From: Dillenia suffruticosa
Taxonomy: Eukaryota > Streptophyta > Magnoliopsida > Dilleniales > Dilleniaceae
Assembly (NCBI GenBank): GCA_033439265.1
Contig: JAVTVX010000020.1
Coordinates: 12,356,001 to 12,420,000, forward strand
Reading direction: 5' to 3'
Length of the DNA stretch: 64,000 nt
Part shown: piece by piece, positions 9,401 to 36,510 of the stretch
Position numbering within the stretch: position 1 is the first letter of the stretch
Layout of the letters: each line of letters starts with the position of its first letter
Made by a program: the position numbers and the translations under genes
Notes under the pieces: model-generated
Seen by the model: the letters and a program-made list of their open reading frames with translations, nothing else
What the model was told of the DNA's origin: nothing
The model's database searches: none

Positions 9401-10676
9401 GCATTCCTCTGCTGCTGCTTCCAGAAAAAATTGATTATTTTAGAGTAACTTCTACTGAAATGCATGGGCTGAAGGTCTCAATTCTTTGTGTTCACCTTCT
9501 TCTTTAAACTGGATTAACAATGTCACTTTTAATAATCAATTACTGATTTCATAAGTGCAGATCCGAAAGCGTGACATAACCCTGAAATTCTCAGATTCTG
9601 GTGAATCCAGTTTATTTGGCACATTTGTTCAAATCCGGCAGACGCAGAACAGTTTCCCCTTTGGCTCATGTGTAACGAGAATGAACATAGATAATGAAGA
9701 TTTTGTTGACTTCTATGTGAAAAATTTTAACTGGGTTGTGTTTGAGAATGAATTGAAGTGGTTTTGGACAGAGCCTGAACAAGGTAACTTGAACTACAGG
9801 GATGCAGATGAACTATTAGATTTGTTTGAAAGCCACAATATAGAAACCCGAGGACATTGTATTTTCTGGGAAGGTGAAAACGCTGTCCAGTCATGGGTAC
9901 GATCACTGAACACGAATGACTTGATGACAGCTGTTCAAAACCGTCTGACCGGCCTTTTGACACATTACAAGGAGAAGTTCAAGCACTATGATGTGAACAA
10001 TGAAATGCTGCATGGATCCTTTTATCAAGATCGATTAGGCAATGATATCAGAGCTAACATGTTCAAGACTGCAAACCAGCTTGATCCATCTGCAACACTT
10101 TTTGTTAATGACTATCATGTAGAAGATTGGAAAGATCCTAAGTCATCCCCGGAGAAGTACATTGAACACATTCTTGATCTGCAAGAGCAAGGTGCTCCAG
10201 TGGGTGGAATTGGGATTCAGGGGCATATAGACAGCCCTGTAGGGCCAATAGTGCGTTCCGCCCTAGATAAGTTGGGTATTCTCGGTCTTCCAATCTGGTT
10301 TAGTGAACTTGATGTGTCTTCCATAAATGAGTATGTCAGGGCAGATGATTTGGAAGTCATGCTTCGAGAAGCTTTCGCACACCCGGCAGTGGAGGGTATC
10401 ATGCTTTGGGGATTTTGGGAGTTGTTTATGAGCCGTGACCATGCTCACTTGGTGAATGCAGAAGGTGATTTAAATGAAGCTGGTAAGCGATACCTTGATC
10501 TTAAACAAGAATGGCTTTCGCATGCTCATGGGCATATTGATGAGCAAGGAGAGTTAAGTTTCAGAGGCTTCCATGGGACATATACAGTGGAAATTGTTAC
10601 ACTTACGAAGAAAGTTTCCAAGACATTTGTTGTTGAGAAAGGGGATTCCCCATTGGTTGTGTCCATCGGTCTATAA
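6462..10676 (+). CDS. XYN1: Endo-1,4-beta-xylanase, GH10 with three CBM22 domains (XYN1-like)
   Basis: This enzyme hydrolyses internal beta-1,4 bonds of xylan and is expected to act in cell-wall remodelling. Proposed exons are 6462-6464 (ATG), 6542-6894, 7005-7164, 7370-7725, 8258-8435, 8550-9086 and 9561-10676. All junctions are GT-AG and keep frame, giving 900 residues, close to Arabidopsis XYN1 (about 917). Three CBM22/CBM_4_9 modules occupy about residues 13-165, 183-340 and 353-515; they start ANIILNPDF, ENIIHNPSF and VNIIENSNL. The GH10 domain fills about 540-810. The acid/base Glu lies in YDVNNEML (codon 10002-10004, about residue 677) and the nucleophile in WFSELDVSS (10305-10307, about residue 778). 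No signal peptide is evident. The start is the least certain part: an ATG at 6521 also opens the frame, but the AG at 6540-6541 looks like an acceptor. A TTA microsatellite lies in the intron after 6894. All domains look intact. Confidence 0.93.
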
Positions 10677-24936: not shown

Positions 24937-24959
24937 CATTACAAAAAAACTTGTATTTA

Positions 24960-25690
24960 GTCACAAATTTTGCGACGAAAATTTAAGAAATATTCGTCGT
25001 TAAATTATTTAGCAACCAATTTTTCGACAAAACAGAATTTGTCGCTAATAACTCGTCGCAAAATTTTATGACAAAAAATATGATATTTGTCACCAATTAG
25101 CGACCGATTATAGTTCATCACAAAATTCGTCGCAAACATTAGCAACCAAAACTTTTTAGTTGCAATTTTCCGACAAAATTTGCGACGAAACATTTCGTCG
25201 GAAAAATTTCCAACAATAAAAAATTTGTTGCAAAAATTGTTGCACAAATTAGCAACCAATATTTTTTTGTTGCAATTTTCCGACCAATTTTGGGACGAAA
25301 TAGTATGTTTCAAAATTCTCTGTCGGAAAATTCGTCGGATAAATTAGCATCAAAAAATTTTTTGTAGCAATTTTGCGACCAACACAACGACGAATATTTT
25401 TTGTCACAAATTAGCGACAAATTTTGTCGTTGCAAATTTCCAACAATAGTTTTTTTGTTGCTAATATTTGCAACAAAATCTGCGACAAAATTATTTTCGT
25501 CGCAATTTGCGACAAAATTTATTTGTGATATAATTTGTCGCAATTCTGTGACAAAATTAGCGACAGCTTTTGCGACGAATTTTGCAACGAAATCTTAAAA
25601 ATTCAGCAACAAATTTTGCAACGAATGTCAAAATCAGCGACGAATGTAGAAAATTTGCGACAAAAAAATTTAATTTGTTTAATATTTGCA
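24960..25690. repeat. Left subterminal repeats of the CACTA element
   Basis: Dense short copies of GCGACGAA, GCGACAAA and their complements TTCGTCGC and TTTGTCGC, with T/A-rich spacers, occupy this stretch in both orientations. In En/Spm such motifs bind the TNPA protein. Open frames on both strands here (up to about 100 codons) come from the repeats and are not genes. Confidence 0.85.
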
Positions 25691-26023
25691 CCAAATTTTC
25701 ATATATATCATATTCCTCCCTGATAGTCTCAACCAACCAGTTTATGAACTAAACCACCAACATCATCATCAACAAATCATCCAGGGTACCATCGAACAGC
25801 CAAGAATACGAAATTTATGCAGTCTCTACTCATTCAAATAACTGACCATCTAATAGTATGAATGAAATAATAATTATAAAAACACTACCATCGTCATGAA
25901 ATAATATTAAACAGTACTAAATAAGTTACAGAATATCGAATTTGTAGAAGTATAAATGAAATTCTAATGAGAAGTCTAATTAAATATAAACGTGAAATAA
26001 AAATTGTTTCAAGAAACATTATC

Positions 26024-26095
26024 ACCATCATCGTCACCATCACCATTACCGTCACCGCCACCATCACCATCACCATCACCATCACCATCACCAAA
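26024..26095. repeat. CACCAT microsatellite
   Basis: An imperfect array of 'caccat' triplet pairs lies within the CACTA element, downstream of the TNPA stop and therefore in its 3' UTR. Confidence 0.8.
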
Positions 26096-26194
26096 TATGT
26101 CATAATCATCATCACCATCATTTGGAGGAGATAGAAAAGGGGGAATCGAACTTGAAGCGGAGACTAACTGAAAATGCTGCATTATAAGCCTCTG

Positions 26195-28277
26195 TTATGC
26201 GCAAAACTTTTCAAATTCATTGTCTTTTCGCTGCTGTTCAACGCGCATGGCTTGAAGTTCATTGTCTCTTCGCTGCTGTTCTACACTCATGACTTGAAGT
26301 TCATTGTCTTTTTGTGCTAACAGCTCCTTCATGTGGCTCAGCTCTTGGTTCATTTGCATTAATTCTGCTCTTACTGGTGTCTGGCCGGAAGAACTTAGAC
26401 CACTGAGTCTGCAAGTTCTGCTCAACGAGCCCATCCCAAGTACTCTTCCCTTCTTTGCTCCACCAGTTGCCTCGAGCCATAAAGCCATATCATTAACAGA
26501 TGGCTCAGACGTTGCAGCATCATCACTACCACTGGAATTTCTAAGTAGAAACTGGTCATATTTCTCCTGCATTATCGTATAAGAAATTAGAAGAAAAATA
26601 AAATAACAATATACTAAAATATCCAATGAAAGAAATAGAAGTGTCAATTAACAGTTGAACAATGTAATAAAAAATCTAACAAATAAAGTCAGAATACAAA
26701 ATTGTATTTCTCATTAAGCGATTGACAGTAAGCAATAAGACACAAAAATTATCTTTGTCAATCAAATATTATAAATTTAATACACTTATGGAATTCTAAT
26801 TACACATACTTATATTTATATATTTAGTTGCTTAATCCATTAAAATGATATTTAGATAATGAGGAGTGTTGTAATTGAAATTAAAATTCGACTACTATTA
26901 CGAGTTTGAAACTATAACAGATCGAATAAAGGAAAAAATTATACTATACGGACATAATGAACCAACCATTTGGAATTGATGTAACAAATTTGATATTATG
27001 TATTTTCTAATTTTATTTTATAATGAAAAATATATATATATATATATGAATTTGAAATGAAAAGTTCAATTTAAATATTTGAGAAATTATTTGAATAGAC
27101 AAATCTATTAAATTCTTATTATAATATTGTGATGATAAATTCAGCATAATAAGTTCAAATAAAAGTTTTTATAAAACAACTTAAAATTTTGAAATTACAT
27201 ACCATAACCGTTCTAGCTCTCTCCCCACTCCAGGTCTTATCTTTTTTCTGAAAAGTCCGTGCGAAAGTCTCTCTAAATGATGGCGGTGATCCCATTTCCT
27301 TGGTCTAAAAACAAAACACCGTTAGATGAATTAATGAAAAAATAAATGAATTAAATTCAAAAAAATATTAATTGAACCAAATTACCATTCTAATTCTATA
27401 CTCATCAATATTGATTGAGCCTCCCGCATAAGTAGCAGATGATTCCCCAGAATTATAAGCTCGATTGATTTTATTTTGCTCACTCCTCCGTCGGCTCTTA
27501 TCGGAATCCCAGAAATTTAAAATGTTGAGCCAATTTTCTTTGGTGATGCAGTGTGGCTTCTTTCGACTCTTTTTTACATGATTTAGTACACCTCGGATGT
27601 GATGACCGCATTTTTTTTAAATATTCTTCTTATTTCAAGCTCCTCGGTCTCATCCCAATTGAACTTTCGCTAAAAAAAAACAATTTGTTATATTTAAATT
27701 ATACACTGAATTGTATATTTAAACTTAGAGGCCTCATTTACCTTGAATTCTCTCCACCATAGCTCTTTGATATCATCTGGAGTATTTGTGTATGACATCG
27801 ATGCTCCTCCCCAATGGTTGTTAATGATTCTATTCAGCTCATGAATAATATACACAGAATTTGTAAATCTATCATAAAATTAGAAATAAAAAGAATGGTT
27901 AGTAAAAAAAATATTTAAATAAACTAATCAATTATATAAATAAAGAAACAATTGTGATAATATTTCAAAATTTAATACTTACGAATCTCCGTAAGGGGAT
28001 ATCACCTCTCGCGTATCTTCCCCTTCAACGTGTGAATCTTGCATTGAAGGTACAATTGAAGGTGCAACTGATGGAAACGGTGAAGGTATATCAGTACAAG
28101 GCGAAGGGGCATGGGAATGTACAGCTGAAACGGACGGTGACGCCGAAGAGTTTGGTCTTGCATTAGAAGATCGTCTATGTCCTACACGTTGAAACTGTAA
28201 CAAGAGTTTTTTCTTGCAAGCAATGAATATTGCATGATTATAAAAAATATAATAGAGTATATGAATAAACATACCAT
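26195..28277 (-). pseudogene. TNPA: TNPA-like transposase (Transposase_24 type), one-base frameshift
   Basis: Expected to bind the subterminal repeats and help bring the ends together. Exons on the minus strand: 28277-28275 (ATG), 28194-27983, 27868-27742, 27669-27386, 27304-27203 and 26566-26195. All junctions are GT-AG and in phase. The order is a Ser/Pro-rich N-terminus, then IIHELNRIINNHWGGA, WWREFKRKFNW, KPHCITKENWLNILNFWDSD and SFRETFARTFQKKDKTW, all typical of plant Transposase_24 proteins. A C-terminal coiled coil with repeated VEQQRRDNELQ units ends at 26195. One base is missing in the A run at 27611-27618 (eight where nine keep frame); restoring it would give about 366 residues. It could be a real mutation or a homopolymer sequencing error. 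Otherwise the gene looks intact. Confidence 0.85.
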
Positions 28278-28485
28278 ATTTAAATTGTCGTCCGAAATGA
28301 GCTATAAAAAAAGAAAACATATTAGCAAATAATATTTCGAAAATGAAACATGAGGCACTAAATATAACATACAAATTGAGAAATTTAAAATGCAAATCTA
28401 AATGTATTTTCACATGAAAACAGTAAAATAAAATTTCATATGATGTTAGACAATTTTAATAAATCTTAAAAAAACAATACTTACC
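28275..28485 (-). other. Splice link between TNP2 and TNPA
   Basis: Six bases after the TNP2 stop (28491-28493) comes a strong donor, GTAAGT (28484-28479). A 27-base exon (28301-28275), with acceptor TATAG and donor GTATGT, ends in the TNPA start codon. TNP2 and TNPA are thus on one strand and chained by splice sites, as in maize En/Spm, where both proteins come from one pre-mRNA. Confidence 0.6.
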
Positions 28486-28490
28486 GACGA

Positions 28491-31400
28491 TCAAAAATCA
28501 AAGTCATTATTGTCATCATCATCCTCATTATCAGATTCTTCAACATCAAATTCATCCTCATCTTCATCATCTGTCTCCAAATCAGGTTCTTCATCGCCAG
28601 ACTCATGAATTTCATTTTGATCCACATCTATCATTACTCCATGTGGATCTCGTAATGTTGGAATAATATATTCCTCAGTCTGAAACGTATTGGCAACTTC
28701 CATTTGTTGATATGCCATATCTTCCCAACGTTCTTCAATTTTCTTTCATACTTTCGTTTTACAAACAGCCCACCAATCAATTTTGTCACGTTTCAAACTA
28801 GGATATGAAGCATAATACACTTGAATCGCTTATTGTGCCAATACGAATGGTTCATATCTTTTATAAAATTTTTTATGATTTATATCAACCAATTTAAACT
28901 TTGGATGCACATTCATCCCTTTTACGGGGTCAAACCATTGGCACATAAATAAAACGACTCGCAACTCTGCTCCAGTGTACTCAACCTCTATAATTTCATC
29001 CAACAAACCATAAAACTCATCTTTTACACCTCCATCGTTGGATGACTGAACACAAACACCACTATTCATAGTAGCTTTTCCGGTTCCATATTCTTGATTG
29101 TGAAAATTATACCCGTTTATAAAATACGATGGCCAAGTTCGCACCGTCGAATTTGGACCCCATGACAGATTAAGTAATAATTCTTATTCAACTTGATCTT
29201 GATTATATTGAATCTGAAGTAAAATAAATGTGTTATTTTTTTAATAATCAAATAGATATAAAATTTAAAATTCGTAAAACTAACATATGTTTTGAACCAT
29301 GCTGCAAAATCTTCATCGCACACACGATTGAACTCATGCATCGATAGTTCAGACCGTGAATGTTGAAAAATCCTACGATTAAAGAAAACGATTTATGTCA
29401 ACAATTTTATCAAAAAAATGAACACATTTTTTATATTTGAGAAAAAAGGACTTACTCGAAGTATGGCGTAACTTTTGGACAGTTCAGTAAAATATATGTA
29501 TGGGCTGCCCGCCATTCTTTCGCAGTTAAATATCTAACCTTATATGATCCACTTGGTCGACCGAGATAGTTGAAAATAGAGAATGATTTTAAATTAGGAT
29601 TAACAGGACCCTCATCATTTCTACCCGCGCGCCGTCTCTTACACTGGACATGAGGCTCGAAATAATATGAAGTAAAACTTGTCACTTCCTCCGCAATGTA
29701 TGCATTAACAATAGATACTTCAACCCGTGACTTATTTTTCACTTTTCTCTTCAAATGATATAAAAATCTAATTGATATGGAATAAAAAGTGTATCAGAAA
29801 ATGATATATAATAAATTTAATACATTGACATACACTATAAACAATATTATGTTGAGAATGTGCAAAAGTTACCTTTCAAATGGATACATCCATCGATATT
29901 GGATGGGACCTGCAACTCTGGCCTCATAAGGCAAGTGAACCAAAAGGTGTTCCATGGAATCAAAAAATGATGGAGGAAAAATCCTTTCTAAATTACATAA
30001 AATGATAGGGATATCTCTCTCTAATTTCGCCATATGTGATTCCTTTAATACTGTCAAGCAAATATCATGGAAAATACTTAACTCTGTAATGACGGCCCAT
30101 ACAAAATCTGGTAATAGTTCCTTAAAAGCAATCAGAATCAATCTTTCCATAAATATGTGACAATCATGACTTTTCAAACCAATCAACTTGCATTCTTTCA
30201 TATCGACACATCTCCCAAGATTTGAGACATAACCATCAGAAAATCTAAGGGATTTCAACCATTCACAAACTTTCCATCTCTGATCCTTATTTATTGTATA
30301 ATTGCCTTTGGTTTTGGTCCCTTACTACTTCCATCCGCATCAAGTGTAGGCCGATTACAATGAAGCCGCATATATTTTCTCGCATTCAAGTTATCTTTCG
30401 TTTTTTCAGAGACATCCATCAATATATTAATCAGATTATCGAAAACATTTTTCTCGATATACATCAAATCGAGATTATGATGAATCAGATGGGTCTTCCA
30501 ATATGGTAAATCCCAAAATACACTCCGTTTGGTCCATTTATGCACACTTCCATATCTGTACGTTGTACCATGTGGGTCTTCAATCGCAGATGAAAATTGA
30601 GACACTCGCTCCCAAATTTGTTGACCAGTTAATCTCAACGGAGGAGGTGTTTTTTCAAATTTATTTTTCGTAAATTCTTCTTTATTTCTTCTAAATTTAT
30701 GATTTTGTGGCAAAAATTGTCTATAACAATCAAAATAACCCGCCTTCTTACCATATTTCAATCTGAATGACTTAGATCTCTCCATACATATTGGACATCC
30801 TAAAACCCCAGCAGTACTCCATCCCGATAGCATGCCATAAGCTAGGAAGTCATTCATCGTCCAAAGAAGAATTGCCTTCATTACAAACATCTGATCAGTG
30901 TTAATATCATACGTAAGAACACCGTCATCCCATAACTGTTTTAACTCCGCAATCAATGGTTGCATATAAACATCTATCAACTTCTTCGGATTTTGCGGGC
31001 CCAGTATAACCAATGTCAAAAACATATAGGGTGTTTTCATACACATACCCGGAGGAAAATTATAAGGAGTTAATATCACTGACCAACATGAATAAGTTTT
31101 CCTCGATTTTCCAAATGGAGCAAAGCCATCAGCACAAAGACCTAACCTAATGTTTCGAGTCTCTCTTGCAAATTCAGGATATGTCATATCAAAATTTTTC
31201 CACACCTCTGTATCCGAAGGATGACACATTAACCATTCCTCTGTTTGATGAGTTGCATGCCAAGTCATATATTCAGTAGTAGCTTTCGATGCATAAAGTC
31301 TTTGCAATCTAGGAGTCAAGGGTAAATAAAACATTTGCTTGAATGGTTTACGTCGCTCAGTATGACCTGTTGTCCTAGTACTCTTGTACCTACTTTGGTT

Positions 31401-32228
31401 ACAGAATTTACAAAATTGTACATTTTCATCAGCTCCCCAAAACAACATGCAACCATCTCTGCATACATCAATTCTTTCCACCGGAAGGCCCAAGTCATTC
31501 ACAAACTTTTTCATACTATAAAAGTCATTCGGCATTATATGATCACGAGGCAATACTTCTCCCATTACTTGAACAATATCATTGAAGCAATTCTCAAACA
31601 AATTATGCTTTTCCTTAACATTTAACATTCTAGCCGTTAATGACAATTTAGTGTGGGTGTCACAACCAACCCATAACGGTTCATCTGCAGCTCTCAACAT
31701 TTCTTGAAATTGGTTAGACAAATAATTCTCATTTTGCACATTCTCATCGACACATGTTGCTTCTACCCCCTCCAATGGTGATGCATAACTTGTAGGTACA
31801 TCTTGATTTGTTGGTACAGAACTAGAACTTGCATAGTTTGTTTGAGGAAAAAAATTTTGACCCGCTGTATCAAATACCATCTGCTGATATGGATTTAACT
31901 GATCATAACAATTGTTATCCCCTCTACTTGAATAATCCAAATTTCGCACATACTCTTCATCAGATATAAACAATTCACCATGACAAGTCCAATTGTAGTA
32001 ATTTAAAGTAAAACCAAATCTACAAAGATGTTCCCTAACTTTATCACATACATGAAATTTGCCATTACCACACTTTCTACACGGACACCTTAACTTATTC
32101 CCATCCATAAACTCAACTTGACTAGTAGCGAAATTCAAGAATTGTTCCACCCCACAAATAAACTCATCAGTTAAACCACGACGATCAGGTAAATTCTTAT
32201 TATACATCCAATTTCTTTCGTTTTGCAT
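28491..32228 (-). pseudogene. TNP2: TNP2-like CACTA transposase, frameshift plus three stops
   Basis: This is the catalytic transposase class of plant CACTA elements. Exons on the minus strand: 32228-29873, 29767-29456, 29372-29285 and 29213-28491, with GT-AG junctions. The first 645 codons are open. They start with a transposase-associated domain (LRCPCRKCGNGKFH, about residues 3-80). Transposase_21 follows, with DVCRDGCMLFWG, RLGLCADGFAPFG and TMNDFLAYGMLSGWS. DUF4218 continues from about 30300 (CEWLKSLRFSDGY, IQYRWMYPFER), DUF4216 is near 28850-29080 (LFMCQWFDPVKG), and an acidic tail ends the protein. A net one-base shift lies at about 30300-30312. In-frame stops are TAA at 29184-29186, TAA at 28830-28832 and TGA at 28746-28748. 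It is therefore a recent pseudogene. Confidence 0.92.
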
Positions 32229-34138
32229 TGTCGTTGTTTAAAAAAATAAATATTATAAAATATTAATAAATTAATTATTAACAAACTATATATTATACTG
32301 AAAAAATAACATTAATAAGAAATAAAGAACATCTAATAACAAAACATTTTAAAATTATTTAACATATTTTCAGAAAATTTAACAAATATAAAAACGTTGA
32401 GTCAGAAAAAATAACAAAATAATTTATAACTATTGCATTTCGCGAATTCACAACATACATACATTGAAATTAGGAATAAGGGATATAAAACAAAGAAAAA
32501 AAATAAAATATACGAAAAAAAATATATACCTCGACCGCTTGAAGATAATAATTTCTCCCCTTTAATTGAACAACACGTCCAATCAACGCAAACACATCTG
32601 CAATGCAAAACCATTAATGTTATTTAGAATTAATCTAATATTAAAATATATTATATAAGATTAACAATATATATTAACTATATATAGCATTATATGTATT
32701 ATAAATTTGAAACATAATCACTCAATAGATGCAACAAACCATGCTTACTCCTCACCACATCTAGGTAGAGATGTGGTGCCTCACTTCTAGACTACGCTCT
32801 AGCAGCCCTTACCAACATTTTTCTACATTCAGGACCTAATACAATGTATCATTAAGAAAGGAACATAGCAATTAATTTTTTATATTGATCTCCCATTATA
32901 TTGATAAAATTTTTTAAACTGATTGTGTTAAATCAAGATGGGCATTTCATAAAAATGTTTCAAAAATTGACATATTTTCTCACCTCTTGCTTAGTTGTAA
33001 AATTGTTATCATACAATTGAAGAACCACAAATGCACACCAGTATTTTACAACACTATCAAACATAATATAGTAGAATTCTACCTAATTAATACATACAAT
33101 CGCAAATGAACTCTACTCTTACGTTGAATAAAAACTTGCTTGCTATACTCTTCAAAACTTCTCATTTGTGTGTTAACAAATGCATACACTATCAAGCAAA
33201 ATATAGCATAATAAAATTAACAAATACATCATCTTAGAAAAGAATGCCGATCATGAAACCTTAAAATCTTATCTTGTGGTGAATATGAATCAAGAAACAT
33301 TGCAATTAGAGGAAATGGCACAGGCAGTTTCCCTTTACCTTTCTTTTCTTTTTAATAGTCAATTTCAAACGTGTAATGAGAAAATATCTTATGCTTACCA
33401 TAGAAACATGCAAATATAAACAAAAACGAGCTTATAAATTTAAATACCCATCAAATCCTTGACCCATGTGAGGGTTTGAAACCCTATTTCCTCTTCCATT
33501 TTAGGGTAATCAATATGATTTCTTCATCGTGTATCACCTTGCCAAGGGCTCTTAAGTCTAGAATATATACACCAAGTCAAGTCTAAGTCATCTTTTTTTT
33601 TTCTCTCCCTATTTACAACCTACTAGTCAAGAGGCTTTTTGGAAAAAATTGAACTTCGATGGGGCTATACGTATGAGGGTCTCCTCTAACATAAGCTTAG
33701 CTTAAGATGTTTCTCAGCAAATATATAGCCTCTACGCATTTAATATTATTCTCTTTATCCTACGCATTAAATGTGTTTCATATGCTAATATTAAATATAT
33801 AATTTTAATTTACTTAAAGACAATGAATATTGATGTAATTTTTAATTCAGTTAAATTATTTTCGATAATTCAGTTAAAATATTTTTTTGTATATAAAATA
33901 AGATCAAATTTGATATTTTTAAAAGAAATATATAGTGATAATTGAGTTATGACTCCTTGTACGTGACAACCCACGTAACTGTAGATGCAGACATGAGTGA
34001 GATCCTTACGTAGTGAACCTCCTTTGCAAATCCCTTCCCATTTCCATCCAACTCCTAGCTGGGAGCGCACAAGGGAAAGTCCATTCTGCCGGCTTGGATG
34101 AGACAAAATTACTTGGAACCTAAATCTTAACTACTGTC
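32229..34138 (-). other. CACTA 5' leader/intron region
   Basis: AT-rich sequence between the TNP2 start and the GC-rich island, on the upstream side of the transposase genes. A possible small leader exon at about 32597-32529 lies between a TTGCAG acceptor and a GAG|GTATAT donor. No protein domain was recognised in the short frames. 32700-34100 shows nothing else. Confidence 0.4.
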
Positions 34139-34556
34139 GGCCCCGCCTGCGAAGATGCGGGCGGGGCCATTACGTCCCCAGATCCGGCCTTTGTGGCCGG
34201 ATCTCAGCGGGGGGAGGCGCTGCGGCGCCTCCCCTCCCCCGGTCGGCCCCGCCTATGAAGATGCGGGCGGGGCCATCCCGTCCCAGATCCGGCCTCTGTG
34301 GCCGGATCTCAGCGGGCGGAGGTGCTGCGGCGCCTCCCCCGCTGTTCAAAGAAACCCGGGGGAGGGGCGTTGCCCCTCCCCCGCTCGGCCCCGCCTGCGA
34401 AGATGCGGGCGGGGCCATCCCGTCCCAGATCCGGCCTCTGTAGCCGGATCTCAGCGGGGGGAGGCGCTGCGGTGCCTCCCCCGCCGTTGAAAGCAACCCG
34501 GGGGAGGGGCGCTGCCCTTCCCCCGCCAAGATCCGGTGGCAATGCCGCCGGATCTA
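34139..34556 (-). repeat. GC-rich tandem hairpin island
   Basis: Three tandem units start at 34139, 34245 and 34387. Each is a series of palindromes: GGCCCCGCC...GGCGGGGCC (34139-34168), GATCCGGCC...GGCCGGATC (34181-34203) and GGGGAGGCGC-tgcg-GCGCCTCCCC (34211-34234). In units 2 and 3 a fourth follows, CGGGGGAGGGGC-gtt-GCCCCTCCCCCG (34357-34383). The block is very GC- and CpG-rich in an AT-rich setting. Its position upstream of the transposase genes matches the GC-rich downstream control region/first exon of maize En/Spm, a target of methylation control. Long frames here on both strands (98-126 codons) come from base composition. Confidence 0.85.
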
Positions 34557-34557
34557 G

Positions 34558-34575
34558 AGAGAGAGAGAGAGAGAG
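34558..34575. repeat. GA microsatellite
   Basis: A GA run immediately right of the hairpin island, followed by purine-rich sequence to about 34680. Confidence 0.8.
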
Positions 34576-34699
34576 TACCTCGTTGATGCCGTGATTCAGA
34601 GGGAGACGACCACGGGGAAGAGAGGGAGAGGAGGAAGAGAGGGATGGGAAAGTGGGGGAAGAGGGAGAGGAAAATTGGGTAGGAGGCATTAAAAAAGTT

Positions 34700-36350
34700 T
34701 TGCAATGAAATCAGCGACGAACATCGAGTTCGTCGCTGAAAAGAGCGACAAACATCGCGTTCGTCGCTGAAAAGAGCGACAAACATCGGCTTCGTCGCTG
34801 AAATCAGCGACGAACATCGCATTCGTCGCTGAAAACAACGACGAAACCTCTCATTCGTTGCTGATCTCAGCGACGAACATCTGATTCGTCGCTGAAAACA
34901 GCGACGAATCTCTCCTTCGTCACTGAATCAGCGACGAACATCGCGTTCGTCGCTGAAATCATGAAATTTTTGGTTATTTAAAGTTTTTTTTTTAATTAAT
35001 TTTATACATGTCTACGGAATGAAAAGTATGCGCAAAGATCAAATTCATGACATGCTATTATTATTTTTTCATCTAATATTTTTATATAATTTTTTTTTTA
35101 TTTTAATTAATAACTATCTATTTAATTAATTACTATTACTAACTAACTAACTAATTACTCTGTCTTAGTTGATTGCCTTTTACTTTTGGCATCCTTGCCA
35201 CGTATTTCGGCTCCAATTGCATGAGCTTTGGGTTCCCTTTCTTATTTTTAGGCAAAGTGCATTAAGCACATCAATGTACATTCGTGAGGGGCAAATTGTA
35301 CAAATATAGAGGAAATGCATGAACAATTATGCATAAATCAACACTAGCAACGCTTTCGGCGGTTTCATTTAACTATTACAATATTTAATTATTAAAATGT
35401 GCACTTTCATTTAATATTATTTATATTTGATTAGGAAAAATGTCATGTCAAATTTAAACATTTTTAAATTTTTATTAAATATAGATAATGAAGTAGAAAA
35501 TTCACTAATAGAAAACAAATTTTTTGTGACGGAATAATCCATAACTGAAGATCCCTTTTTGGTCGTTCAAAGGCATCAACGAACGATTTTTTTAATCACG
35601 AACCATGTTTCGTTGCACATATCAGGGACGAATGTGGTATTTTGTCGTTTCATTTGTGGCGAAATTTTAAATTTCAGCAACAAATATTAATTTTGTCGCT
35701 GCAATCAGCAACCAAATTCCTAGTTATCGCTGAAATCCGCGACAAAAAAATTGTTTGTCGTTGACTCTGCGACGAAACATTTGTTCGTAGCTGAATCTGC
35801 AACGAAAAGGTCTTTTCGTTGCGATTTCAGCGACGAAATCTCTGCGCGTCACTGATTTTAGCGACGAACAACTTATTCGTGGCTGAAATCTGCGACGAAT
35901 ACTTTGCGTCGCTAAAATCAGCGACGAAACTCGTTTTCGTCGCTGAAATCTTCGACGAAATCATTCTTCGTCGCTGAATTTGCGACGAAAAAGTGTTCTG
36001 TCGCAGATGTTGCGACGAAAACTAATGTCGTCGCTGATTTCAGCGACGAAACATCTGTTCGTCGGCAATTTCAGCGACGAAATATCTTCTCGTTGCTGAA
36101 ATGCGCAACGAAATTCGTTTTTGTCGCTGAAATCTATGACGAAATTCATTTTCGTCGCAAATTCAGCTACGAAATTCGTTTTCGTCGCAAATTCAGCGAC
36201 GAAGAATGATTTCGTCGCTAAGTTAGCTACAAAATTTTTTTCGTTACTAATATCGTTGAAAAATGGTTATGAAATTTATTTTCGTCGCCAAATTCGTCGC
36301 AAAATAGCAACAAAAAATGTTTGTCGCAAAGGTCCATCGCAAAATCCGTG
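34700..36350. repeat. Right subterminal repeats of the CACTA element
   Basis: Two blocks (34700-34965 and 35640-36350) hold many TTCGTCGCTGAAA and TTTCAGCGACGAA words, often as head-to-head pairs forming short palindromes. The 34970-35640 gap is AT-rich and nearly free of the motif, suggesting an insertion between two formerly adjacent blocks or a rearranged end. This is the promoter side of the element. Confidence 0.85.
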
Positions 36351-36363
36351 TTTTTTTGTAGTG

Positions 36364-36510
36364 ATATATGTGTAACATTCATATTGTTCGAAACCAATTG
36401 TATAAATAGGTGTACTCACATTTCTTCATTTTTTTTACTAATTATGTAAATACCCAAAATATTTATAATAAATTCTTAATTTAGGTGTTGAAGTTGAATG
36501 CGAAGTTTCT
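36364..36510. repeat. Old dispersed repeat, copy B (last part)
   Basis: Continues the match to copy A at about 4799-4925, including 'caaaatatttataataaatt' against 'ccaaaatatttataataaat'. Similarity fades after about 36510. Confidence 0.7.

Follow-up and report, generated by a model that had tools for sequence, protein, structure and literature searches.

A tandem array of GC-rich palindromes in the predicted first intron of a CACTA transposon family of Dillenia suffruticosa: a candidate cis-regulatory island

What might a row of stable GC-rich hairpins do just upstream of a transposase gene? We address this question for a locus of Dillenia suffruticosa contained in a stretch of 64,000 nucleotides (the window, hereafter), in which such a row, the hairpin block, occupies positions 34137-34555 of the minus strand. 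The block is a GC-rich island amid low GC, as first described in an initial annotation made from the sequence: its GC content is 0.74, compared with 0.30 at 33001-34000 and 0.33 at 35001-36000. TRF detects periods of 105 and 142 bp, and we recognise 12 hairpins, ordered A-B-C, A-B-C-D, A-B-C-D and E, in tandem units that start at about 34137, 34243 and 34385 (Table 1). Nine stems in the block pair perfectly over at least 9 bp, with loops of 3-12 bases; 100 dinucleotide shuffles average 0.09 such stems and reach 1 at most. The hairpin array therefore exceeds both chance and GC richness, the latter in agreement with the annotation. Its picture of units built from perfect GC palindromes holds for the three tandem units and the nine stems, but "perfect" overstates the matter a little: hairpins C (unit 2), D (unit 3) and E fall short of 9 perfect pairs, and two hairpins of unit 3, B and C, reach that number only with larger loops. 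The strong folding that it expected of minus-strand RNA is also found, the whole-block z score being -11.4 for the minus (sense) strand and -15.5 for the plus strand (100 shuffles each), with a local z of -13.2 on the sense strand. A search of 32000-36500 against Rfam returned sub-threshold matches only, none at the gathering score. We considered and rejected a hairpin of the microRNA type, which has a stem of about 20 bp or more; the perfect GC-rich stems in the 40 copies described below are 8-15 bp long, with one listed at 18.

The element that hosts the block belongs to the CACTA (En/Spm) superfamily, as is evident from its terminal repeats, 3-bp duplication, TNPD transposase and subterminal repeats. 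The terminal inverted repeats read CATTACAAAAAAA on the left (one change) and CACTACAAAAAAA on the right (minus strand), and the 3-bp target site duplication, ATA/ATA, flanks the element. Among the matches listed, 11 copies lose homology at 36363-36369, and L012 does so at 24937. The subterminal motif AGCGACGAA has 38 matches in the whole window, compared with 1.9 expected, most of them at the two ends of the element, where the repeats are present in both orientations. At 34706-34958 and at related loci, the subterminal repeats are palindromes spaced by 31 bp, with conserved arms and highly variable 5-base loops; those with exact arms number 179 and have 46 different loops up to orientation (a one-strand count). 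When we looked for a TnpA-like DNA-binding protein, the open reading frames at 27979-28455 and 26195-26647 matched no Pfam family at E 0.001. We also observed that CACTAATAGAAAA..GTGACGGAATAATCC at 35503-35540 resembles the end of another CACTA element nested in the window element, and that the matches of L013, L024 and L025 skip 35493-35791. Elsewhere in the window, at 9555-10676 on the plus strand, we recognised by eye an open frame for a putative plant GH10 endo-xylanase.

Table 1. Features of the CACTA element in the window, in order of position.
Feature	Position	Strand	Remarks
CACTA element	24937..36363	-	terminal repeats and ATA target duplication read directly
Remainder of TNPD, several open frames	28830..30290	-	Pfam DUF4218, DUF4216
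TNPD transposase, first and longest coding exon	30291..32228	-	Pfam PF02992 E 3e-77, PF13963 E 1e-19
Predicted exon 2, untranslated	32530..32597	-	donor GT retained in 17/18 copies
Predicted intron 1	32598..34578	-	contains the hairpin block and a stretch varying among copies
Unit 1: hairpins A-B-C, D absent	34137..34242	-	
Unit 2: hairpins A-B-C-D	34243..34384	-	
Unit 3: hairpins A-B-C-D	34385..34528	-	
Closing hairpin E	34529..34555	-	first hairpin past donor; common to sister family
CT-rich leader, predicted exon 1	34579..34700	-	ends CAACGAG before GT donor 34578-34577
Subterminal repeats, 31-bp period	34706..34958	-	AGCGACGAA motif in inverted pairs
Additional subterminal repeats toward the element's 5' end	35640..36295	-	

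The place of the block within the transposase gene was read from its relatives. We use here a set of 40 copies selected by the block (39 fetched copies and the window, all oriented) and an alignment of splice signals from 18 copies, out of 22 long enough, that passed our filter. In all 40 block-selected copies the CT-rich leader is present and adjoined by the block, and in 39 of them the leader is followed by a donor GT; the intron 1 acceptor TTGCAG is retained in 16 of the 18 aligned copies. Because donor and acceptor are conserved in these relatives, the block is predicted to sit in intron 1, outside the mature leader, with hairpin E beginning 23 nt past the predicted donor in the window copy. 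Homology resumes at 32650 or 32628 in six copies among the matches listed. One role raised by the initial annotation was a translation block, in which stable hairpins would stand in the leader of the mature TNPD mRNA. The location between the CT-rich leader and the TNPD start codon and the very stable fold are consistent with this idea, but the splice signals (donor GT in 39/40, acceptor AG in 16/18) put the block in the predicted intron, which makes it highly improbable. The acceptor of predicted exon 3, ahead of the TNPD start, is retained in 17 of the 18 copies. The exception is the window copy, which is without the AG at 32234 and for this reason is probably defective.

The genome searched comprises 596 Mb. 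Hairpin B with exact arms occurs at 267 places in it and hairpin E at 103, compared with 0 for the reversed-pattern control in both cases; at least 33 of the 50 E places listed (of the 103) adjoin a listed block, B hairpin or TNPD. A search with the block scored 40 places from 247 first-look candidates, and a search with TNPD scored 73 from 3493. All 40 block-selected copies have the build A-B-C-D in 142-bp units, and each is closed by E; 18, 15, 5 and 2 of them contain two, three, four and five A hairpins, respectively. The array is expected in all 40, since these copies were selected by it. A set independent of the block consists of 11 TNPD copies outside the block list, stop-free in the part searched, for each of which 1.1 kb was read at a set distance upstream. 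The block or its edge lies within this distance in eight of the 11 (L055-L059 and L061-L063; L058 and L059 have only short matches to it), and it becomes visible in L064 once longer sequence is read. Leaving out L065, nine of the ten scorable TNPD-chosen copies thus have the block. The same unit is found in other CACTA copies of this genome, where the annotation had proposed to seek it. The tenth, L060 (C10:18048378-18049478), lacks both leader and block and has an open TNPD frame; in this copy, the subterminal repeats are followed immediately by the AT-rich stretch found past the block in L056. From these observations, the hairpin block is a regular, position-specific feature of its CACTA family. 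The portion of intron 1 beyond the block varies among copies. In L064/L067 (C31:11510222-11513300), the second unit of the block is followed by some 1.7 kb of unrelated sequence and then by a block-like remnant, as if that sequence had been captured.

Other CACTA families were sampled through a PF02992 list, for which 150 of 2257 candidates were scored, by reading the upstream DNA of seven further copies (L048-L054). L048 and L049 form one family, with GGGACGAA subterminal repeats, and their GC island, 0.7-0.8 kb long, occupies the equivalent place. This island opens with a 12-bp E hairpin, 40 nt past a donor-like GT in L048 (by eye); past E it contains mostly different hairpins, its local fold z being -12.0 and -12.9 in the two copies. 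Between the leader and block of the window and those of L048/L049, compared with words of 11, only the CT tract and hairpin E match at an E value <0.01. A search with the L048/L049 island scored 40 places of 243 candidates. Four diverged copies of this sister family, aligned with L048/L049, have few hairpin substitutions; a single arm has a one-sided change, and the repeat tract in the middle varies in both length and sequence. The sister-family hairpin GCGAAGGGGC-loop-GCCCCTTCGC is similar to the core of D, with two pairs differing on both sides; we do not count this as compensation, because homology between the two is not established. A smaller GC island, which may be their subterminal repeats, is present in L052 and L054 and also has excess structure (z -6.7 and -6.6). 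In L050 and L051, the GC islands upstream of TNPD exceed their expected structure little or not at all (z -0.5 and -2.4), and no comparable GC island is present in the upstream stretch read for L053. We also note that the islands of L050 (about 1720-2550) and L051 (about 990-1700) lie between a putative TnpA-like frame, recognised by eye, and TNPD.

Comparison of the units with each other reveals which parts of the block are held constant. In a larger set of 119 units from 46 elements, each matching at 116 bases or more, columns with two common alleles (at 8%) make up 2 of 90 arm, 1 of 18 loop and 16 of 34 linker positions. The contrast between hairpins and linkers has a Fisher probability of 2.5e-9 at this threshold and of no more than about 4e-7 at thresholds of 3, 5 and 15%, and it rests on tandem units that have possibly been homogenised among themselves. 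At 3%, the counts are 16/90 arms, 7/18 loops and 24/34 linkers, and the arm contrast holds; for loops alone against linkers, the probability is 0.002 at 8%, weakening to 0.039 at 3%. In an earlier set, made up of 102 units with lengths of 135-148 bp, the counts were 1/90 arms, 0/18 loops and 14/34 linkers, and a rare-versus-common test gave 7e-7. Rare changes occur at rates of 0.018 in arms, 0.031 in loops and 0.022 in linkers, that is, in loops as often as in linkers. The palindromes, as we read these sequences, were maintained during the life of the family and decay in dead copies.

Covarying stem changes between copies, which the annotation regarded as the sign of selection on structure, are not what the units display. 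Over hairpins A-D, 246 changes are one-sided and 2 both-sided (1 of them Watson-Crick) in 5280 pair cells. Over all five hairpin types, the count is 224 one-sided and 3 both-sided (1 Watson-Crick) in 5398 cells; only about 2.5 both-sided changes are expected by chance, so the test is low in power. This second count left out instances with non-consensus length or more than 6 differences, retaining 107/111 for A, 107/118 for B, 116/127 for C, 124/141 for D and 28/40 for E. Damaged stems do persist in the copies, and the drift of one arm without compensation, which the annotation had set against its own proposal, is the rule for fresh mutations (246 one-sided versus 2 both-sided).

These figures bear on the idea of an RNA device, in which the hairpins would fold in the nascent transcript near the 5' splice site and tune splicing or transcription of TNPD intron 1. 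The sense strand does fold strongly (z -11.4, local z -13.2), but the opposite strand folds at least as well (z -15.5). Hairpin E stands close to the splice site in both families (23 nt past the predicted donor here, 40 nt past the donor-like GT in L048), and the hairpin build recurs in the sister family with mostly other sequence, all of which suits such a device; the uncompensated stem changes do not. The two common arm variants point in opposite directions: that at column 9 (19/119 units) turns a non-Watson-Crick pair into C-G, whereas that at column 131, the most widespread (44/119 units), breaks a pair in the sense RNA, making it A-C. Stem changes that create G-U pairs have no significant sense bias (69 versus 51, p 0.12), which weakly favours DNA sites over a stem-only constraint on RNA. 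We consider an RNA device rather unlikely.

The loops are informative in the same respect. Their diversity is 0.5-1.0 bits in B, C and D, 2.8 in A and 1.7 in E, compared with 4.7 bits for the 179 subterminal-repeat hairpins, and these lower values suit recognition of whole sites in DNA better than a stem-only RNA constraint. Given that the hairpins are constant, the linkers diverged and the stem changes one-sided, palindromic sites at the level of DNA would fit better than a selected RNA structure.

Could the palindromes be without function, a by-product of mutation that has arisen and spread through slippage, template switching and the duplication of units? Variation in the number of A hairpins per copy, from 2 to 5, is consistent with this explanation, as are the retention of fresh stem damage and the loss of the block from L060. 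In addition, the 3-base loop of D has been inverted in place, with neighbouring hairpins unflipped, in two backgrounds (L021 and L027/L045/L046), which points to hairpin-mediated template switching. We retained only the D inversion: inverted B and C loops in added loci are probably orientation errors and occur in none of the 40 block-selected copies, and the change in the E loop is explicable by one substitution. Against a by-product, the palindromes stayed fixed while neighbouring linkers diverged, E was retained in two families whose islands are otherwise unalignable save for the CT tract, and the island has an equal gene position in both. On this evidence we judge a functionless origin unlikely.

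Tandem and inverted repeats are classic triggers of silencing, and the block may be seen as a target in which CpG-dense repeats attract methylation and small RNAs, whether as a host trap or as a self-limiting device. Transitions in the block are more frequent in CG (0.0286) and CHG (0.0196) than in CHH contexts (0.0061), a footprint of the methylation type, and the copies, the block included, have probably been methylated. The corresponding rates are 0.0320, 0.0357 and 0.0196 for TNPD (14 copies) and 0.0404, 0.0341 and 0.0302 for the 5' end (20 copies); these counts omit any column with two common alleles, and block and TNPD have different thresholds in line with their copy numbers. The block is not singled out by this footprint, which in CG contexts is no stronger than in TNPD. 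Its observed/expected CpG ratio is 0.83, lower than the 1.14 of the entire element. For these two reasons we find no mark of a special methylation target. Stems of 9-15 bp are, moreover, short for Dicer. That silencing is what the block is for seems to us improbable.

In En/Spm, the GC-rich control region lies in untranslated exon 1 and is built of a short GC repeat; this downstream control region of the maize element was reportedly the subject of work by Masson in 1987, Banks in 1988 and Schlappi in 1994. The annotation had likened the location of the block to that region, and the likeness stands: both are repeated GC-rich islands that follow closely on the promoter and subterminal repeats and precede the coding exons, and the block lies upstream of TNPD on the minus strand of a CACTA element. 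The window element differs in having a 142-bp unit of four hairpins, as opposed to a short GC repeat, and in the location of the block, which is predicted intron 1 and not exon 1. The block also resembles CpG islands and GC-rich first introns in its GC and CpG values (0.74 and 0.83) and its position near the presumed transcription start; unlike them, it is packed with palindromes far above what its composition predicts.

Serial palindromes in CACTA elements have a precedent in soybean Tgmt* and TgmR*. There, stem-loops are described in the subterminal repeats near the termini and are taken as sites for a TnpA-like protein, and Tgmt* shares the ATA target duplication with the window element (PMC2613891, PMC4219821). 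Unlike those palindromes, the GC block of the window is separate from the element's own subterminal repeats, which have free loops. A GC hairpin array between leader and TNPD is mentioned in none of the available parts of PMC2613891, PMC4219821, PMC4158355, PMC8195511 and PMC10398659; it is likewise absent from titles and the beginnings of abstracts among the literature matches listed, which is no proof of its absence from print.

By analogy, the block is probably best understood as a palindromic form of the En/Spm downstream control region that lies in intron 1. In functional terms, we hypothesize that it is a cis-regulatory island of the transposon that acts as DNA, in the manner of that control region, and we give this about an even chance of being right. 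The island lies just within the predicted first intron of TNPD, past the leader and subterminal repeats, and would act mainly as a dense array of GC-rich palindromic DNA sites. These may bind a dimeric protein from the element or the host, and binding would decide between an open and a silenced promoter region. Hairpin extrusion at replication would be a side effect, allowing unit duplication and loop inversion. Position, tandem palindromic build and presence in most copies speak for a regulatory island, as do the constancy of the palindromes relative to linkers and the island of largely different hairpins that a sister family has in the equivalent place. Against it stand L060, without leader and block though its TNPD frame is open; the CG footprint and CpG ratio, the former not above that of TNPD and the latter below that of the element; the L050/L051 islands, with little or no excess structure; and the rare changes, which strike loops (0.031) as often as linkers (0.022). 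A different reading, which we regard as unlikely, is a second, as yet undescribed class of binding-site array in CACTA elements, whose long intron 1 palindromes would be read whole by a fast-evolving protein encoded by the element. Such a protein would explain both the freezing of palindromes within a family and their replacement between families, and E would be retained next to the splice donor as an anchor.

A classic question about CACTA elements is how they change between activity and silence, and although the GC-rich control region of Spm has long been known, we know of no clear sequence rule for it. Here, two families have mostly different palindrome arrays in the same intronic place, and others have plain GC islands. 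These families let one ask what the region requires: GC and CpG alone, palindromes, or particular sites.
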